Shown here: one piece after another, positions 3,037 through 19,602 of the stretch
How the letters are laid out: each line of letters opens with the position of its first letter
How positions within the stretch are numbered: the stretch's first letter is position 1
Virus record (IMG/VR): IMGVR_UViG_3300042691_030415
Location: 1-35,026 of that record
Source of the DNA: a virus
Reading direction: 5' to 3' (one strand)
DNA length: 35,026 bases
Translations under genes and position numbers: made by a program
The notes under the pieces: generated by a model
Databases searched by the model: none
What the model saw: the letters and a program-made list of their open reading frames with translations, nothing else
Told to the model about the DNA's origin: nothing

Positions 3037-3073
3037 CGTTTCCACCGTTTAACTGTATCAAAAAGTAATGGTA

Positions 3074-3376
3074 TTACTCGGCCAATTTCCGATACTTTTT
3101 TTCGTTCTGCAAAACCTCAATCAGCCTTTTAAGACAGGCCAATTCCGCCTCTTCGTACGATTGAAACCCAAGTACACCGCCAATGTCATGAATGTCGTAC
3201 TCATAGACACCTCTACTGTCGTAGGTATCCACAATCCGAAATTTCAGCCAGCTATGCTTTTCCCGGATATACCGGAATGCAGCGGAAAAGCTGACATACA
3301 ATGTAGGAGTTTCCATGCCCAATAACCTGAGCGAAACAACCTCATTAAGTGGCACCCTGTCTAAATCGTTACTCAT
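3074..3376 (-). CDS. conserved small phage protein
   Basis: This 100-residue protein has the layout of a small family frequent in Bacteroidota phages: a segment ending in an REKH motif (FRYIREKHSW), a middle stretch with tyrosines (YEYDIHDIGG) and a C-terminal helix starting with SYEEAE and ending in LKRLIEVL. The family has no known function that I can name. Its ATG overlaps the stop of the upstream gene by 4 bp (ATGA), so the pair is translationally coupled, and an intrinsic terminator follows at 3011-3036. Confidence 0.75.
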   Translation of the reverse strand: MSNDLDRVPLNEVVSLRLLGMETPTLYVSFSAAFRYIREKHSWLKFRIVDTYDSRGVYEYDIHDIGGVLGFQSYEEAELACLKRLIEVLQNEKKYRKLAE

Positions 3377-3681
3377 GATGCTTCCTTTTCCGGAAATTCA
3401 AATGCGTTGAGGTGGTCGAGGTACAACTCCAATTCGGCATCTTCCATTTCAAATATTTTCCAAACCAATTCAATCAAGGCATGGTTTGTTTCTTCCTCGG
3501 CCACAACGGTTGCCGGACCCAAAGACTTGTGAACTGCCTTTTCCATCTCCAGAGCCGATGCCATCAAGCGGTTGAAGTGCATCTTCATTTCGTTCTTTAG
3601 AATCTTATCTCCGTACTTAATCACGGTGCCGGATTCGATTACACCCTTGACGAAAAAGAAAAACTTTGTGAAATCTCGCAT
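3373..3681 (-). CDS. hypothetical protein, coupled pair
   Basis: A 102-residue acidic, mostly helical protein (MRDFTKFFFFVKGVIESG...) with no recognised domain. It starts just downstream of the tRNA-like cluster and its stop overlaps the start of the next gene. The hydrophobic FFFFV run near the N terminus is too short for a membrane segment. Function unknown. Confidence 0.65.
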   Translation of the reverse strand: MRDFTKFFFFVKGVIESGTVIKYGDKILKNEMKMHFNRLMASALEMEKAVHKSLGPATVVAEEETNHALIELVWKIFEMEDAELELYLDHLNAFEFPEKEAS

Positions 3682-3730
3682 TTTGTTTTTTATGTTAAAA
3701 TCTCTTTCCTGATGTCAGTAAAATGATAGC

Positions 3731-3829
3731 GGTGGGATCGGGAGTCGAACCCGTAACCATACAACTTACTGATTTTACAGGCGAGTCGGCCTAACTCTCG
3801 CTGTATGTGTGCAACCAACGCACCCCACC
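3731..3829 (-). tRNA. tRNA-like gene 1, expanded anticodon region
   Basis: On the minus strand the ends form a 7 bp acceptor stem (GGTGGGG with TCCCACC, one G.U). A T arm with the TTCGACT loop lies between CGGG and CCCG, and a D-like arm GTGC/GCAC carries a GTTGGTT loop. Where an anticodon arm is expected there is a stem CATACA/TGTATG enclosing 38 nt instead of 7, which contains its own hairpin GCGAG/CTCGC. The D arm also crowds the acceptor, so positions 8-9 are not normal. No anticodon can be assigned with confidence. It could be a tRNA with a small insertion, a degraded tRNA or a tRNA mimic. Confidence 0.55.
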
Positions 3830-3856
3830 GAGTGACTAATTATTTCTTTTTTAGCG

Positions 3857-3960
3857 GATGGGGGCAGGACTCGAACCATGCATCTTTTACTTACTTTCTT
3901 TTCGGCCAGACTGTACACATCCTAATAAGTAACTGCTTTAACCACTTAAGCCACCCCACC
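3857..3960 (-). tRNA. tRNA-like gene 2, expanded anticodon region
   Basis: Minus strand: acceptor GGTGGGG/CCCCATC (7 bp, one G.U), a good D arm GCTT/AAGC, and a T arm with TTCGAGT loop (GG/CC plus GCA/TGC with a bulged T). The anticodon position holds a stem TTACTTA/TAAGTAA; counting from its five outer pairs, 36 nt replace the 7 nt loop. The GGCCGA hexamer in this insert also occurs in the insert of tRNA-like gene 1. The spacer repeat at 3961 abuts the 5' end. Isotype not assignable. Confidence 0.55.
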
Positions 3961-3984
3961 GTTTTGCCGTCTTTCCGGCTGTCA
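3961..3984 (-). repeat. spacer repeat copy A before tRNA-like gene 2
   Basis: A 17 nt segment (GTTTTGCCGTCTTTCCG, 3961-3977), followed after zero or one base by GCTGTCA, is repeated at 4156-4180. Each copy abuts the 5' end of a tRNA-like gene. On the minus strand copy A forms a small hairpin GCCG/CGGC with a 6 nt loop. It may be a processing or leader element. Confidence 0.6.
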
Positions 3985-4018
3985 TTCCTATTATTTGGTA
4001 AGGGTGGAACATCCTTGT

Positions 4019-4155
4019 AGTCAGGACAGGATTCGAACCTGTAAGTTTGTACGACCTCTTTTACAACCTTATGATTAGGGTAACGTAGGTCTTTGAGAAC
4101 GTTCCTTTTTCTAAACACTTGGTGTCGCTGCGTCTACCAATTCCGCCACCTGACC
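4019..4155 (-). tRNA. tRNA-like gene 3, Leu-type D arm, expanded anticodon region
   Basis: Minus strand: acceptor GGTCAGG/CCTGACT (one G.U), D arm TGGCGGAATTGGTAGACGC that is almost identical to bacterial tRNA-Leu, and a perfect T arm ACAGG-TTCGAAT-CCTGT. Length is 137 nt against about 85-90 for tRNA-Leu. A stem GCGAC/GTCGT encloses 68 nt. Alternatively the first seven of these (ACCAAGT) could be an anticodon loop with CAA (Leu), but then only three of five stem pairs form and the variable arm is huge. No CCA is encoded. Confidence 0.6.
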
Positions 4156-4180
4156 GTTTTGCCGTCTTTCCGAGCTGTCA
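4156..4180 (-). repeat. spacer repeat copy B before tRNA-like gene 3
   Basis: Second copy of the spacer found at 3961-3984: the first 17 nt are identical, then one extra A, then GCTGTCA. It abuts the 5' end of tRNA-like gene 3 exactly as copy A abuts gene 2, which suggests the tRNA-like units arose by duplication or share a processing signal. Confidence 0.6.
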
Positions 4181-4230
4181 GTGCTGTATTGTCTATTGGG
4201 AATCCTTAGTCACCCGAACCCAGTAATTTA

Positions 4231-4461
4231 TCAATCCAAATTCTTAAACTTTGGCCCCTTCTTCGCCTCCTCCAGGTTCTTTGCCAACTCCAGATTTTTG
4301 GAATTATCAATCAACATCAGCCGGCCATTTTCAAGTTGGATGTCCTGAAACTTGCGCAAAAGCAAATCCCTGCGAACTAAATGGTACCTTATATTAGAAC
4401 TCAGGTTTTCGTACTTCCTGACGAAGGCGAGAACCGAGATGGGTAGATTCGTAAAACTCAT
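4231..4461 (-). CDS. hypothetical protein, first leftward gene
   Basis: A 76-residue, charged helical protein (MSFTNLPISVLAFVRKYENL...). I chose the ATG at 4459-4461 rather than the upstream reading from 4509, because the promoter -7 box TACTTTTG (4486-4479) and the divergent control region lie upstream of 4461. As the first gene of the leftward unit facing the rightward early operon it occupies the position where phages often keep a regulator, but no DNA-binding motif can be seen. Function unknown. Confidence 0.55.
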   Translation of the reverse strand: MSFTNLPISVLAFVRKYENLSSNIRYHLVRRDLLLRKFQDIQLENGRLMLIDNSKNLELAKNLEEAKKGPKFKNLD

Positions 4462-4526
4462 TTTCAAAAATATTTTTGCAAAAGTAAAACCAACTAATTT
4501 AATTTGCAAAACATTTTTAAAAACAA
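4462..4526. promoter_or_regulatory. divergent early control region
   Basis: Leftward promoter: -33 TTTG (4510-4507) and -7 TACTTTTG (4486-4479) with a 20 bp spacer, a close match to the Bacteroidota consensus. Rightward promoter: TTTTTG (4473-4478) and a degenerate -7 TAATTTG (4500-4506). The two overlap, so they probably compete. A perfect 14 bp palindrome CAAAAATATTTTTG (4465-4478) lies between them and is a candidate operator; the same palindrome recurs at 8106-8119. Confidence 0.6.
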
Positions 4527-5162
4527 ATGGAAGTCAAAAGAAGAACAGTCGAACTTGTATCGGGGATGCGGTTCGGTATCGGTGTCGGTAAGTTCACCGT
4601 TGAAAAAGTAACTGACGAACTTTGTCAGGTCTCTTACAATCGGAAAGCCGGAAGCGAGGTTGAATCGACCTTTTACATACAGCCTGAACCGCTGAGGAAC
4701 CTCATTCAAATCGAGGAAACCGAAAGGCTTCTGAAAAATGCAGAGGAAAAAGCCCGGTATTGGAAGCAGGAAAGGAATGACTGGCACAAGCGGAATATGG
4801 AATGCCATATTAAACTTGACAAGGCCGAAAAGTTAGCGCAGCATTGGCAGGATGACCGCAATCGGGAAACCGAGAAACTGAAAGAGTGCCAAAACCAAAT
4901 GAAGGCTCAAGAACTTCTGCATTTGGATAGACTCAATGCCAAAGGTGCATACATTGATGATCTCAATCAAAGACTTTTGGACCTTAACAAAATAACCATC
5001 GAAAAAGACGATGCGATTAAGGTGGCCAAACGGGAAATTAGGGAACTGGAAGACGATTTGGCCGCAGCCAAAAGGAAATACCGAAAGGATATGTTTTTGG
5101 TAGGCTTGGCCAATGTAGTGTTTTTCCTTGGCTTTGCCGCTTATATCGCTTGCTTTGTATGA
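4527..5162 (+). CDS. coiled-coil protein with C-terminal membrane anchor
   Basis: First gene of the rightward early operon, 211 aa. Residues about 1-55 form a small N-terminal region with basic and beta-prone sequence (RFGIGVGKFTVEKV). About 55-185 are highly charged heptad-like helix (long coiled coil). The C terminus (LVGLANVVFFLGFAAYIACF) is a single hydrophobic transmembrane segment with almost nothing after it, so the long coiled coil would project into the cytoplasm. I do not recognise the family. An early tail-anchored protein might act on the host membrane or superinfection, but this is only inference. Its stop overlaps the next start (ATGA). Confidence 0.7.
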   Translation: MEVKRRTVELVSGMRFGIGVGKFTVEKVTDELCQVSYNRKAGSEVESTFYIQPEPLRNLIQIEETERLLKNAEEKARYWKQERNDWHKRNMECHIKLDKAEKLAQHWQDDRNRETEKLKECQNQMKAQELLHLDRLNAKGAYIDDLNQRLLDLNKITIEKDDAIKVAKREIRELEDDLAAAKRKYRKDMFLVGLANVVFFLGFAAYIACFV

Positions 5163-5419
5163 GCAAAAAAATTTATAAGGAATTTGCATCGGCAAACATT
5201 ATCGGTGTAACCTTAGAACACAATGGGTTTCAAGGCGGTGATGCCGGGCATGGTGGTTTTGTTCGCTTGGTTATTCAAAATTTGTCTTCAACATTTATGC
5301 AAGTTAATGGGCAGATGTCTGAAGAATTTGAACTTGTATTTAGAGGCACAACAGAGCGAGAAACATTTTTATCCGCATTAAAAATGGTCGTTGAAGAACT
5401 TGACAAAAACGATGTATGA
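5159..5419 (+). CDS. small hypothetical protein
   Basis: An 86-residue protein (MSKKIYKEFASANIIGVTLEHNG...). The ATG at 5159 overlaps the previous stop (ATGA) and is preferred to the ATG 9 bp upstream. It has an alternating beta-like N-terminal half and a C-terminal helix (ERETFLSALKMVVEEL). No recognised domain. It is tightly coupled on both sides, so it belongs to the phage early operon. Confidence 0.65.
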   Translation: MSKKIYKEFASANIIGVTLEHNGFQGGDAGHGGFVRLVIQNLSSTFMQVNGQMSEEFELVFRGTTERETFLSALKMVVEELDKNDV

Positions 5420-5772
5420 CGCTCGGAGATTTCAAAAAACACATCGAGCGCTTTCCGATTGGAACCCAATTCAAATTTGGCATTTCTGAACCTTTCTCAT
5501 GGCGAGGGGTCTATGCTGAAGTAGCTTTTGCAATTACCGAAAACCCGATGACTCGGGAAGAGGTATTGGCCAAAATTCGGCTTGCTTACCGGGGTACTTT
5601 CTTCGGCTACAAAGGTGGCGAGTATAGTTATGATGACGACACAGATGTTCACTTTGAACCCGATAGTAAAACTTGGACTGACGGTGGTTATGTGTCAGGT
5701 TGGATTGCTCGAATTGAGAATCAGGAAGAATACAAGACTCAGGAGCATAGGCTTGTTAAGTTGGCTTTTTGA
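5416..5772 (+). CDS. conserved phage protein of the SxRGxY type
   Basis: The 118 aa protein has the pattern of a small phage family: an N-terminal helix (LGDFKKHIERFPIGTQFKFG), a motif EPFSWRGVYAEVAF resembling the PxSYRGYYxDLAF motif, and a later GYKGGEYSYDDDTDV segment. Members occur in phages of varied hosts; the function is unknown. It is coupled to the preceding gene by ATGA. Its TGA stop sits inside the first R''-like box of the cassette array (TGATAAC, 5770-5776), so it is either the last native gene before the array or itself the remnant of a cassette. Confidence 0.7.
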   Translation: MTLGDFKKHIERFPIGTQFKFGISEPFSWRGVYAEVAFAITENPMTREEVLAKIRLAYRGTFFGYKGGEYSYDDDTDVHFEPDSKTWTDGGYVSGWIARIENQEEYKTQEHRLVKLAF

Positions 5773-5855
5773 TAACGTTTTGCAGATAGGCGAAGGCACA
5801 AATAGCGTTGGCATTGTGCGGTTGGATTTGGGCTTTTGCTTATGTGCTGTTAGCT
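5770..5855 (+). repeat. attC-like site 1
   Basis: R''-like TGATAAC (5770-5776) and R'-like GTTAGCT (5849-5855). Arms 5782-5795 and 5833-5847 pair over 12-13 positions with one unpaired G, like the extrahelical bases of attC. A terminal hairpin GCACAA/TTGTGC lies at 5796-5801/5814-5819. The predicted cut is after G5849. Confidence 0.7.
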
Positions 5856-5886
5856 GCCGTTTTTTAACAATAAACAAATTTTTAAA

Positions 5887-6210
5887 ATGAATACAAAAGG
5901 AAACAATTTAGACACAGTAACAGAAAGATTGGTAGATGCTATTCTTTCAGATAATTTTTTGCAAAGGGATAAACTTATTCCAAGATGTAGAGCAATAATC
6001 CAAGCGTGGGTAAAAGCAAACGATAGACCCTCTAATTATGACGAACCTCAAACCTCTAATGGCAAATTGCAAAAAACTGTCGAACAAAGAGGAATTGAAA
6101 AAGAATATTGGCGGGCAAAATTAATTGAGGTTGTAGGTAAAGAAAATATGCAGCCCTATTATGATGAGTTAAAAAACAAACTAATTGATACGGGTTATCT
6201 GTCTTCCTAA
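5887..6210 (+). CDS. cassette 1 protein, unknown
   Basis: A 107-residue hydrophilic helical protein (MNTKGNNLDTVTERLVDAIL...), AT-rich compared with the phage genes around it. The start lies 37 bp after the preceding R' box behind an A-rich leader, and the stop is 6 bp before the next R'' box, the usual packing of an integron cassette. I do not recognise the family. The C-terminal half (EYWRAKLIEVVGKENMQPYYDELKNKL) is a plausible amphipathic helix pair. Confidence 0.65.
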   Translation: MNTKGNNLDTVTERLVDAILSDNFLQRDKLIPRCRAIIQAWVKANDRPSNYDEPQTSNGKLQKTVEQRGIEKEYWRAKLIEVVGKENMQPYYDELKNKLIDTGYLSS

Positions 6211-6216
6211 AATGGC

Positions 6217-6351
6217 AGCTAACGCTTGCCCTGCTTTGCGATGGGCTGGACTTGAAAGAACAAAATTAACTTTTAGAACAAAATAAAATGGAAAGCACAA
6301 AAGATTCAAATCAGCACGAAAGCCAGCCTATTGCAAAACAGGCTGTTATGG
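6217..6351 (+). repeat. attC-like site 2, carries a start codon in its loop
   Basis: R''-like AGCTAAC (6217-6223) and R'-like GTTATGG (6345-6351). Arms 6229-6249 and 6323-6342 match at 17 of 20 positions; two of the differences are G.T pairs on the top strand. The 73 nt loop (6250-6322) contains an A-rich leader and the ATG at 6288, from which a reading frame runs through the right arm into the next cassette gene. Confidence 0.75.
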
Positions 6352-6629
6352 GAAGTTTTAATACTCCGGTTAAAAGACTTTTTGATATGCTTTTTCAAAA
6401 TTTGACTCCAACAAGAAAACAACTTGCTGCGCTAAAAAGGTTTCAAAGAGAAGAGCAAAAGATAATCGCAAAAGCAATTCATTTTGGATGGCTGGACGAA
6501 TCTGACCATACAGGTATTGATTTTTTTTATGATAAAGAATTTAATGGTGGAAAACGGATTTGTCCTGATTGTAAACAAGGTTTGTTACGGTTGGAAAGGC
6601 CAGGGAAAGAAGGCTGTTCTTTTTGCTAA
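6288..6629 (+). CDS. cassette 2 protein with C-terminal zinc ribbon
   Basis: Reading from 6288 gives 113 aa; a second in-frame ATG at 6348 lies in the R' box and gives 93 aa (MGSFNTPVKRLFDM...). I list the longer form because the A-rich leader typical of Bacteroidota starts (AACAAAATAAAATG) precedes 6288, but the first 20 residues are then encoded by attC-like site 2. The C terminus has CPDCKQG...GCSFC, two CxxC pairs of a zinc ribbon. The middle is helical (TRKQLAALKRFQREEQKIIAKAI). It may bind nucleic acid or another protein; function not known. Confidence 0.65.
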   Translation: MESTKDSNQHESQPIAKQAVMGSFNTPVKRLFDMLFQNLTPTRKQLAALKRFQREEQKIIAKAIHFGWLDESDHTGIDFFYDKEFNGGKRICPDCKQGLLRLERPGKEGCSFC

Positions 6630-6634
6630 ATTTC

Positions 6635-6764
6635 CCATAACGGCTTACGCTATACGAAGGTGGGGATTAAGATGCACAACCCTCCGCTTACCTAAAAAGC
6701 AAATTAGATGCACAACTATACATATTTGGCACACAGCCCCACTTTTGTATAGCGTATGTTATAG
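6635..6764 (+). repeat. attC-like site 3
   Basis: R''-like CCATAAC (6635-6641) and R'-like GTTATAG (6758-6764). The arms give a perfect 10 bp stem TACGCTATAC/GTATAGCGTA (6646-6655/6747-6756) and a second stem TGGGG/CCCCA (6661-6665/6737-6741) separated by an unpaired block, as in long attC sites. The loop holds a direct repeat GATGCACAAC. Confidence 0.8.
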
Positions 6765-6784
6765 GCTGATAAATTTTACGGATT

Positions 6785-6991
6785 ATGGCAAAGAAATTTT
6801 ATTTAAAAGAAAGACACAACCCACAATTTAAAAACCCATATTATGTTGCTTGTGGACAACTAACCAAGAAAGATGCAAAGGCAAAAGAAAATTCTCTTTA
6901 CGGAGATAACTTTATGATTGCATACGAAACGGAAAAGGAATACAACGATGCTATTGAAAAGTTGAAAGCTAATGGTCAACGAGTGCAGTAG
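6785..6991 (+). CDS. cassette 3 protein, unknown
   Basis: A 68-residue basic protein (MAKKFYLKERHNPQFKNPYYVACGQL...). The start is 27 bp after the G of the R' box of attC-like site 3. The layout (short N-terminal strands, then two helices with TKKDAKAKENS and EKEYNDAIEKLKANG) resembles small single-domain proteins, but I recognise no family. No toxin or antitoxin motif is evident. Confidence 0.6.
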   Translation: MAKKFYLKERHNPQFKNPYYVACGQLTKKDAKAKENSLYGDNFMIAYETEKEYNDAIEKLKANGQRVQ

Positions 6992-7005
6992 TAAAATTTA
7001 TTTGC

Positions 7006-7087
7006 CGATAACGGTAGGCAGCTTGGCGACAGTAGCCGAAGAGTTGGCTTGCAGCGTGGCGGCTATTGCGCAAAACTGCGGTTATCG
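7006..7087 (+). repeat. attC-like site 4
   Basis: R''-like CGATAAC (7006-7012) and R'-like GTTATCG (7081-7087), embedded in a perfect GCCGATAAC/GTTATCGGC pair. The inner arm TAGCCG/CGGCTA (7033-7038/7060-7065) and GCAG/CTGC (7018-7021/7076-7079) form the stems. At 82 bp it has a typical attC length. Confidence 0.8.
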
Positions 7088-7132
7088 GCTGCCCTTCTTT
7101 CGGAATGATTAACAATTTAAACAACAAATAAA

Positions 7133-7504
7133 ATGAACAGAAAAATCAAATTTAGAGGAATTAGAGAAGAATACAACCCTGCTTGGCATCAGTCAATATT
7201 TAGGTTTGGAAATCTTTTAAATAACAATTCAATTGGGGAGGTAGGATATGACCTTTCTCATTATGAATACGCAAAAGTAAAGCCTGAAACCATTGGGCAA
7301 TTTACTGGATTGACTGACAAAAATGGAAACGAAATATATGAAGGCGATTTAGTTCAGCACGATGCTTGGAACTACCCATTTGAAATAATTTTCAATGATG
7401 AGAAAGCAAGGTTTGTCTGCAAATTACAAACAGGAGTAACCCAATACATAGATTGTGAAAGATTGGTTGTTGTCGGAAATATTCACGAAACGGTGTCTGC
7501 TTAG
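7133..7504 (+). CDS. YopX family protein in cassette 4
   Basis: Matches the YopX pattern common in phages of Gram-positive and Bacteroidota hosts: N-terminal RKIKFRG, central PETIGQFTGLTDKNGNEIYEGDLVQHD (residues about 59-84) and a closing VVVGNIHE (about 112-119). The length (123 aa) is normal. The biochemical role of YopX proteins is not established. It lies in a cassette between attC-like sites 4 and 5, with its start 52 bp behind the R' box after an A-rich leader and its stop 7 bp before the next R'' box. A typical phage gene carried as an integron-type cassette is unexpected. Confidence 0.85.
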   Translation: MNRKIKFRGIREEYNPAWHQSIFRFGNLLNNNSIGEVGYDLSHYEYAKVKPETIGQFTGLTDKNGNEIYEGDLVQHDAWNYPFEIIFNDEKARFVCKLQTGVTQYIDCERLVVVGNIHETVSA

Positions 7505-7510
7505 GGTTGC

Positions 7511-7643
7511 CGATAACGGTTTCGGGCTTTGTGTCCGTTGGCGATTTAAACCACAAATGTTAAATTAAAAAACAAATATTAATATGAGCAAAAAAGTTGA
7601 ATTGAAAAACGAAACAGCCAATGGCACAAAACCCGTGTTAGCG
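7511..7643 (+). repeat. attC-like site 5, carries a start codon in its loop
   Basis: R''-like CGATAAC (7511-7517) and R'-like GTTAGCG (7637-7643). Arms 7523-7542 and 7617-7635 are complementary except for one G.T pair, one C.A mismatch and one unpaired base. The 74 nt loop (7543-7616) contains an A-rich leader and the ATG at 7584, which opens a frame through the right arm into cassette 5. Confidence 0.8.
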
Positions 7644-8054
7644 GTTCGTTCCTTATCTGTTGGAAATCTTCTCAAAAGAAATGGAATTATTGTAAAAATT
7701 GATGCAAAATCAATATTTGATATATGGGATGATAATGGGATAGATAAATTAGGTTATGAGCCAATACCACTAACAGAAGAATGGTTGTTACGGTTTGGGT
7801 TTAAAAAGGAAGAAAAAAGTCCATCGAAAAATCATGGTAATTATTATAGTGTTTGGTTAATGGATTACAAATATTCATTTTCTTATGCTGCATTTCGTGA
7901 AGATTGGGGTTTTTATCATTCTTACACAGATGCCTTAAAAGATGAAGATAATGATAAATTTGATTTTATTTCATGTGGTATCAAATATGTACACGAACTT
8001 CAAAATCTTTATTATTCACTTAGTCAAGATGAACTGTCTTGGAATGACCGCTAA
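7584..8054 (+). CDS. cassette 5 protein, phage EWLLxFGF family
   Basis: The body matches a family frequent in Bacteroidota phages and prophages: VGNLLKRNG near the start, PIPLTEEWLLRFGFKK (about 66-81) and the C-terminal signature IKYVHELQNLYYSLSQDEL (about 134-152). The function is unknown. The conserved part begins at about residue 23; between the R' box (7637) and that part there is no ATG, GTG or TTG in frame, so translation must begin in the loop of attC-like site 5, which belongs to the preceding cassette. Residues about 12-20 (ANGTKPVLA) are encoded by the attC arm. The stop TAA lies within the R'' box at 8049-8055. Strongly AT-rich. Confidence 0.8.
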   Translation: MSKKVELKNETANGTKPVLAVRSLSVGNLLKRNGIIVKIDAKSIFDIWDDNGIDKLGYEPIPLTEEWLLRFGFKKEEKSPSKNHGNYYSVWLMDYKYSFSYAAFREDWGFYHSYTDALKDEDNDKFDFISCGIKYVHELQNLYYSLSQDELSWNDR

Positions 8055-8055
8055 C
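8047..8055 (+). repeat. R'' half-site at the right end of the array
   Basis: ACCGCTAAC is the exact complement of the first nine bases of cassette 5 (GTTAGCGGT, 7637-7645). The rest of an attC is missing: no GTTA-ending arm follows before the phage promoter at 8106. The sequence just after it forms a small palindrome (CGCATAATTGCG). The array therefore seems truncated here. Confidence 0.6.
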
Positions 8056-8105
8056 TAAGAAATAGTCGCATAATTGCGTGATATTTTTCCCCGCCAAATT
8101 ATTTT

Positions 8106-8145
8106 CAAAAATATTTTTGGAATTAAGATTTCTGTCTTAACTTTG
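8106..8145 (+). promoter_or_regulatory. promoter before the gene at 8167
   Basis: TTTTTG (8114-8119), 18 bp, then TAACTTTG (8138-8145), a good Bacteroidota promoter. It shares the block AAAATATTTTTGGAATTA with the promoters at 16247 and 19249, and the 14 bp palindrome CAAAAATATTTTTG with the divergent control region at 4465. It likely restarts early transcription downstream of the cassette array. Confidence 0.7.
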
Positions 8146-8166
8146 CCGGAGTTAAAACACAAAAAC

Positions 8167-8466
8167 ATGACAGAATTATTTGAGACTTACGAGTTTGAGT
8201 ACGAAGGGAAAAATTACCCATTCGAGGCCGAAGTTGAATTTAAGTTTGAGGGATTCGATGGCATCGGATTCTTTGAATTTGGCGGTTCACAGGATTACGA
8301 CAAAGGCAATCCAACTTGGGATGTTGTCAATGTTACAATCAAGTGGGTACACGACCCGGATGCAGGTGAGTTTCTTGACCTTGCTACCCTCAGCCCCGAT
8401 TTAATTGCAACCATCAAGGAGTTCGCCACAGAACATTGCGAAGAACCTGAATATTGCAACGACTAA
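8167..8466 (+). CDS. small acidic hypothetical protein
   Basis: A 99-residue acidic protein (MTELFETYEFEYEGKNYPFE...), probably beta-rich at the N terminus with a C-terminal helix and two late cysteines (EHCEEPEYCND). I chose the ATG at 8167 because an upstream in-frame reading would start before the promoter at 8106-8145. It is the first gene after the cassette array and is followed by a strong RNA pseudoknot before the SSB gene. No function recognised. Confidence 0.65.
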   Translation: MTELFETYEFEYEGKNYPFEAEVEFKFEGFDGIGFFEFGGSQDYDKGNPTWDVVNVTIKWVHDPDAGEFLDLATLSPDLIATIKEFATEHCEEPEYCND

Positions 8467-8480
8467 GAAATTAAAAACCT

Positions 8481-8528
8481 CCTGCCCGATGTTAAGCGAC
8501 CGCATCGGGCAGGCTTTCACCCGGTCGC
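8481..8528 (+). promoter_or_regulatory. H-type pseudoknot in the SSB leader
   Basis: Stem 1 is 11 perfect pairs (8481-8491/8503-8513). Seven bases of its loop (8496-8502) pair perfectly with 8522-8528 (stem 2). Loop lengths are 4 nt, 0 nt and 8 nt, which is sterically reasonable and allows the stems to stack. The structure ends 12 nt before the SSB ATG (8541). By analogy with the pseudoknot at which T4 gp32 nucleates to repress its own translation, this may be an autoregulatory site. It could also simply be a weak terminator hairpin, but it lacks a long T run. Confidence 0.65.
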
Positions 8529-8540
8529 AGAATTACAAAA

Positions 8541-19235: not shown

Positions 19236-19248
19236 TTCCTTATTTGTG

Positions 19249-19289
19249 AAAATATTTTTGGAATTATCGAATTGGCTGTATTATCTTTG
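19249..19289 (+). promoter_or_regulatory. promoter inside the accessory island
   Basis: Contains the block AAAATATTTTTGGAATTA (19249-19266) shared with the promoters at 8108 and 16247, then TATCTTTG (19282-19289). The spacer from TTTTTG is 21 bp, slightly long. It is followed by the conserved small gene at 19312. Confidence 0.6.
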
Positions 19290-19311
19290 CAAAAATTAAA
19301 ACACTAAAAAA

Positions 19312-19602
19312 ATGAACGCAGCAACACAGATTCTTTCTCAATTAGGCGGTAACAAATTTATTGCCATGACAAGTGCAACTTGTTTCTCTGATAACAACGG
19401 AAACACGCTTGTAACAAAGTTCAAAGGTTCAAGGATTGCAAACATTATGTATGTAACTTTGAATAGCATGGATACTTACGATGTTCGCATCTGCAAGTAT
19501 AGAGGCCTTGATGTAAAGCCGGTATCTACTCTTTCAGGAGTTTATTCCGATATGCTAAAATCAATATTCGAAGAAACAACAGGACTTAGAACTTCACTTT
19601 AG
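19312..19602 (+). CDS. conserved small phage protein (LGGNKFIAMT family)
   Basis: A 96-residue protein matching a widespread small phage family: ILSQLGGNKFIAMTSAT near the start, the central TLNSMDTYDVRICKYRG and a C-terminal GVYSDMLKSIFEETTGLRTSL. Family members are found in many Bacteroidota phages and plasmids, without a known function. It has its own promoter (19249) and terminator (19611). Confidence 0.8.
   Translation: MNAATQILSQLGGNKFIAMTSATCFSDNNGNTLVTKFKGSRIANIMYVTLNSMDTYDVRICKYRGLDVKPVSTLSGVYSDMLKSIFEETTGLRTSL

Follow-up and report, generated by a model that had tools for sequence, protein, structure and literature searches.

What a run of short genes set off by palindromes is doing inside a phage genome, and whether its members move, is the question raised by positions 5773-8055 of the IMG/VR virus record IMGVR_UViG_3300042691_030415, whose 35,026 nucleotides (nt), here called the window, were analysed as a whole. 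Very probably, the segment is a row of five gene cassettes that are mobilised by a site-specific recombination system resembling integrons and found in Bacteroidota and their phages. The original prediction had read it as an integron-type cassette array within a phage operon, and its core finds support, namely mobile one-gene cassettes with attC-like palindromes that are completed in the circle. Specifically, the five co-directional open reading frames (ORFs) of low guanine-cytosine (GC) content are present (5887-8054; GC 35.4% in the array vs 42.8% in the flanks), the TAACG...GTTA palindromes are real, imperfect and five in number, five one-gene units span 5773-8055, and the surrounding genes, including DnaB, Erf, portal, tape measure and endolysin, bear out the phage setting. 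A detector of TAACG/stem/GTTA elements returns exactly five palindromes in the whole 35 kb, with scores of 29-37 vs 25 for the best of 20 dinucleotide shuffles.

Units, sites and orientation

The ends of the units carry the first part of the argument. As predicted, the head of each window unit pairs with its own tail and not with those of its neighbours (6.0 vs 3.1 of 8 matches beyond the invariant GTTA/TAAC; 155 of 20,000 permutations are equally good), and the examples originally given, GTTAGCTGCC/GGCAGCTAAC for unit 1 and GTTAGCGGT/ACCGCTAAC for unit 5, hold, while the two boxes within one palindrome match no better than background (2.8 of 8). Repeated on other units, the test yields 5.35 vs 2.82 in 65 from phages and 5.59 vs 2.73 in 37 from chromosomes, with none of 20,000 permutations equally good in either set. 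This complementarity of own head and own tail points to units that were once closed into circles.

The palindromes belong to a widespread site family. R1, a covariance model built from 28 sites of other contigs and holding no window sequence, matches all five window sites, on the + strand only, at 127 to 51.5 bits, and detects sites in 18 of 22 records tested. The boxes read GTTAknnGCnGT, one spacer measures 4-5 nt and the opposite one 1 nt, and a G.T pair occupies one arm position in 27 of the 28 aligned sites. With one genome sampled per species, and with E-values that are rough, R1 matches occur in 173 of 395 Bacteroidota genomes vs 1 of 274 Gammaproteobacteria; the chromosomal loci hold long arrays, with one strand for all sites of a locus. 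A 169,658-base IMG/VR record (G005) holds 42 same-strand sites over 38 kb (77-116 kb) ending at a recombinase. It also has a transposase and a match to a tail fibre, and a number of IMG/VR records may be of non-viral origin. An Rfam scan of the window gives no family matching the palindromes, and when named genomes are scanned for the motif of the 127-nt class of site, as found before gene 5, three matches appear, near chance expectation, the one inspected being no site, so that a looser model is needed there.

The array opens with a palindrome and closes with a bare TAAC (8052-8055), a feature that the original prediction missed and that assigns each palindrome to the gene downstream of it. 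Judged from the compared sequences, the phage cassette is a palindrome plus its downstream gene: repeated blocks between unrelated contigs mostly begin at TAACG and extend through the palindrome into that gene. The opposite definition, a gene with the palindrome behind it, was rejected for phages, since both these blocks and the segments of Polaribacter phage Freya described below begin at the palindrome. Moreover, the longest ORF begins inside the site in 26 of 65 phage cassettes, and in the window genes 2 and 5 each start within the palindrome upstream. Sites of the 127-nt class recur in other phages at 94-95% identity ahead of unrelated genes, each time supplying the gene behind with its start codon as well as with the leader MSKKVELKNETANGTKP or one much like it.

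The ordinary cassette layout is not upheld, as phage genes are inverted relative to their sites, unlike those of chromosomal arrays. Among the fetched loci, which are not a random sample, genes run on the R1 strand in phages (65 of 67) and on the opposite strand in chromosomes (30 of 31 cassettes). Folding energies favour the coding strand in 5 of 5 window sites and 77 of 82 phage sites, and the non-coding strand in 33 of 52 chromosomal sites.

Gain and loss at a fixed point

Related phages carry different cargo at this site. The sister phage L043, whose flanks are about 90% identical to those of the window, has at least six cassettes, none of them shared with the window, and a second sister, L263 (flank matches of 79-88%), has a single one (about 7841-8540), both with the same right boundary. 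Unit numbers of one, five and at least six, with different units each time, at a shared boundary argue that the array is mobile. Of the findings once named as fatal to the original prediction, the same five genes in fixed order in related phages and palindromes without homologues in any integron are not what is observed: different genes occupy this site, and homologous palindromes lie in arrays beside a recombinase. Elsewhere, exactly one TAAC-to-TAAC cassette is common to L083 (224-527) and L101 (10617-10920), at 96% and in different surroundings. A search of the sampled chromosomes for whole cassettes shared with phages finds none, only sites that are alike (about 65-80% over 100-150 nt). 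The gene left of the array (5416-5772) is cut short at codon 26 in L043, and its absence from L263 suggests that it may itself be an old insertion.

The junctions are read from Polaribacter phage Freya, whose isolates F1, F2, F5, F6, F8, F9 and F10, all from one host, were compared around the recombinase and at the record ends; their publication gives lengths of 44.0-48.9 kb (PMC8776804). The compared stretches are identical or nearly so, yet the isolates differ by whole segments. Their arrays end at 1313, 2155, 3057 or 5948, or run in full, and then continue with AAC, ACCCCTATAAC and the recombinase; F6 has a different last cassette and F8 lacks one internal segment. The junctions, in which AAC is followed either by ACCCCTATAAC or by a cassette, share 3 nt (AAC) and are nested from the recombinase end, and thereby match what insertion at attI with a G^TT/AA^C crossover would leave. 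Within what genome comparison can tell, whole cassettes are demonstrably gained and lost, always at one attI-like point where the array ends on its 3' side, 8055/8056 in the window, and the unit boundaries, the insertion point, the junction triplet and the adjacency of a recombinase are established on the same footing.

A tyrosine recombinase of about 265-306 amino acids (aa) lies directly behind the last cassette and on the same strand in some array-bearing records. A reverse search by recombinase alignment alone recovers 14 viral loci, and most of those with enough upstream DNA have an array just upstream. A TAAC box usually stands 46-52 nt before the recombinase ATG, often followed by TnnTTATATATA. 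In chromosomes, the array ends in a comparable attI-like sequence, next to which lies a longer recombinase, with an extra N-terminal part, that points towards attI; the Chryseobacterium plasmid NZ_CP041688 has this chromosomal layout. A terminase lies behind the recombinase in another record (G004), and the cargo near recombinases includes DNA methyltransferases, which would fit escape from host restriction. Cellulophaga phage Ingeline and Polaribacter phage Leef (L196 and L197) carry a recombinase after an attI-like GCTAAC box and no R1 match, and are candidates for empty platforms. At L175 (10945-11870), a frameshift breaks the chromosomal recombinase beside a long array, owing either to a sequencing error or to ongoing loss of the recombinase from this array.

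The features of the window are collected in Table 1. A nucleotide search in named phages finds no relative of the array, and the YopX gene used as bait retrieves mostly unrelated phages without sites; the terminase family PF17289 is uninformative as a phage marker, because it has no match even in the window. A stretch at 19240-19324 is about 75% identical to the leader that follows the array in sister phages (L043 10637-10717, L264 12260-12340, L263 8584-8656, the last being the counterpart of about 8095-8180 in the window) and is possibly a repeated phage promoter. At 3856-3960, on the - strand, Rfam gives a transfer RNA match of 40 bits where ARAGORN makes no call.

Table 1. The cassette array and its borders (positions in the window)
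Feature	Position	Strand	Basis or remark
Phage gene, 118 aa, left of array	5416..5772	+	TGA stop overlaps first TAAC
attC-like site 0 (TAACG...GTTA), part of cassette 1	5773..5852	+	detector; R1 51.5 bits
Cassette 1: site 0, gene 1 (5887-6210, unknown), tail GGCAGCTAAC; head GTTAGCTGCC at 5849	5777..6223	+	
attC-like site 1	6220..6348	+	detector; R1 96 bits; loop bears the ATG listed for gene 2
Cassette 2: site 1, gene 2 (6288-6629, unknown), tail TTTCCCATAAC; head GTTATGGGAAG at 6345	6224..6641	+	
attC-like site 2	6638..6761	+	detector; R1 90 bits
Cassette 3: site 2, gene 3 (6785-6991, unknown), tail TTGCCGATAAC; head GTTATAGGC at 6758	6642..7012	+	
attC-like site 3	7009..7084	+	detector; R1 51.5 bits
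Cassette 4: site 3, gene 4 (7133-7504, YopX family PF09643), tail GGTTGCCGATAAC; head GTTATCGGC at 7081	7013..7517	+	
attC-like site 4, 127-nt class	7514..7640	+	detector; R1 127 bits; loop holds ATG and 18-aa leader MSKKVELKNETANGTKPV, in frame with gene 5
Cassette 5: site 4, gene 5 (7584-8054, unknown), tail GACCGCTAAC; head GTTAGCGGT at 7637	7518..8055	+	
Fixed right boundary: bare TAAC box (8052-8055), then TAAGAAATAGTCGCATAATTGCGTGATATTTTT; putative attI-like insertion point	8052..8100	+	common to sisters L043 and L263

Competing explanations and proposed mechanism

The alternative that survives best, although unlikely, is a classical cluster of attC sites lacking an integrase (CALIN), whose IntI-type attC cassettes would stem from a host chromosomal integron with IntI as the recombinase. 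It follows the same logic of sites and circles, and phage-borne CALINs are already published, including that of Polaribacter phage P12002L (Qi et al. 2023, PMC9892861), whose genome holds similarly laid-out sites on the gene strand that R1 scores poorly; IntI1 recombined five of six phage attC sites, one of them from P12002L (PMC9892861). True IntI, above the cut-off of profile TIGR02249, occurs in 46 of 148 sampled Bacteroidota genomes (e.g., L222-L251), far above RefSeq-based surveys, one of which counts a single complete integron in the phylum (PMC9024848), and some Bacteroidota genomes carry both IntI and R1-type systems. By definition (at least two attC-type sites and no integrase) the window is a CALIN, with five R1-type rather than classical attC sites. 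However, none of its five sites has boxes fitting GTTRRRY or RYYYAAC (10/88 and 9/88 fit in phages, 4/52 and 9/52 in chromosomes), and R1 has no match in 40 loci around true IntI genes, where the flanks span only about 1.5 kb. Moreover, the recombinases adjoining the sites lack the IntI insertion, with 86-92 aa between box I and box II vs 133 in most IntI and 98 in XerD, score 94-155 bits with TIGR02249, below its cut-off of 265, and stand apart from both IntI and XerD in the tree (support 0.9 for their own clade and 1.0 for IntI); the best family scores of the phage enzymes are those of XerA (160-206 bits) and XerD (119-171 bits). The cassette logic of the CALIN reading stands and its classical attC sites do not, and the recombination with host integrons first envisaged loses ground: given the missing IntI insertion and the separate clade of the site-adjacent recombinases, the natural partner is probably not a classical host integron. 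Having neither the IntI domain nor the box consensus, the system is not counted as a member of the IntI family, and by its sequence features it appears to work like an integron all the same.

Ordinary homologous recombination between similar palindromes, with no dedicated recombinase, is less likely still. Sites of the 127-nt class, up to 95% identical between phages, are a possible substrate and conserved flanks could let sister phages swap arrays, but the Freya junctions are precise between dissimilar sites with only AAC in common, the sites within one array are mostly dissimilar, and a recombinase gene repeatedly adjoins. Transposon-like units, or miniature inverted-repeat transposable elements, ending in GTTA...TAAC would account for the inverted repeat at the head and tail of each unit; they are very improbable, as the moving blocks begin at the palindrome and not at the head repeat, the target is single, fixed and often beside a recombinase, and the junctions examined bear no target-site duplication. 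Lastly, hairpins are common between co-directional phage genes, but a static gene run with terminator hairpins and chance complementarity is scarcely tenable against the own-tail specificity of 65 phage and 37 chromosomal units and the same-strand arrays across Bacteroidota, and is already refuted by the differing content of sister phages.

Several observations weigh against the preferred reading of mobile, integron-like cassettes. The recombinase gene that adjoins attI and array in related phages and chromosomes is missing here, no tyrosine recombinase being found in the 35,026-base record, as the original prediction had noted. The window boundary fits the TAAC/TnnTTATATATA type of attI poorly and, its box being common to L043, the exact cut point at this boundary is deduced from Freya. 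The Freya sites are themselves divergent and score poorly with R1, and two Freya_10 segments (1314-2155 and 3058-5948, from L200/L195) have a distance of only about 60 nt from their own head to the tail that follows, so that these may be several cassettes moving together or may have genes inside the loop of a site. In addition, a block repeated between L051 and L083 extends upstream of the site, not downstream, and the covariation in R1 is partly circular because the detector picked sites by arm complementarity.

In the proposed mechanism, a cassette would comprise a folded site (TAACG-arm-loop-arm-GTTA) and the downstream gene, ending in TAAC, and would circularise, its own tail and head making a full site. 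The coding strand may fold as the substrate, and an Xer-like tyrosine recombinase related to the array-adjacent ones would cross AA^C, which reads G^TT on the complementary strand, with attI. The window phage would have lost the recombinase or never had it, and would thus depend on its supply in trans. Cassette genes would be transcribed from the phage operon, along which their inversion relative to the sites allows them to be read, a probable advantage, and the sites often give the captured gene an ATG and a short leader.

Beyond the window, the balance tilts, with more reserve, towards a second, IntI-independent integron lineage that many Bacteroidota carry (>40% of the sampled species have sites) and that phages share in an inverted form, in which att sites bring start codons and leaders, genes are read from the operon, and members of a population differ by single cassettes at the AAC/attI junction. 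If true, a phylum-wide non-IntI system that includes phages would mean that a major path by which phages and bacteria exchange genes has escaped notice; it would make modular single-gene exchange between phages and Bacteroidota possible and account for closely related phages that differ by single accessory genes. Three questions would also become accessible to test: the requirements of a non-IntI enzyme for cutting a folded single strand, the possible delivery of cassettes by phages to host arrays, and the course of insertion at attI in the natural series of Freya isolates.

Relation to known systems

Bacteroidota are regarded as poor in integrons, whose defining enzyme is IntI. A literature search, with most subscription journals and preprints outside its scope, returns no report of the present system, and a text search of the Freya paper (PMC8776804) finds neither integrons nor cassettes mentioned. 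Like IntI integrons, sedentary chromosomal or mobile, the system combines a recombinase beside one fixed site with arrays of one-gene cassettes, some of them long, imperfect palindromic sites completed in the circle, an AA^C/G^TT junction and nested growth from the recombinase end. Unlike them, it employs a recombinase outside the IntI clade and without the IntI-specific insertion, boxes of the type GTTAknnGCnGT instead of GTTRRRY, spacers of 4-5 nt and 1 nt, and phage genes inverted relative to the sites. With the phage CALINs (PMC9892861), which were detected by classical attC models and assayed with IntI1, it shares clusters of attC sites without an integrase and a cargo of DNA methyltransferases; it differs from them in its distinct recombinase with its own attI, its inverted cassette layout and its natural insertion variants. 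As in Treponema-type integrons, where intI is transcribed towards attI (PMC3607928), the chromosomal recombinase points to attI along the direction of the cassette genes; however, the recombinase belongs to another clade, and the phage arrays have the opposite arrangement, with genes running towards a downstream recombinase. Lastly, the enzymes resemble simple Xer/XerA tyrosine recombinases (NF040815, TIGR02225; PMC8138268) in their two-domain size and best family scores, and are set apart from that type by a clade separate from Bacteroidota XerD and by the cassette arrays that adjoin them.

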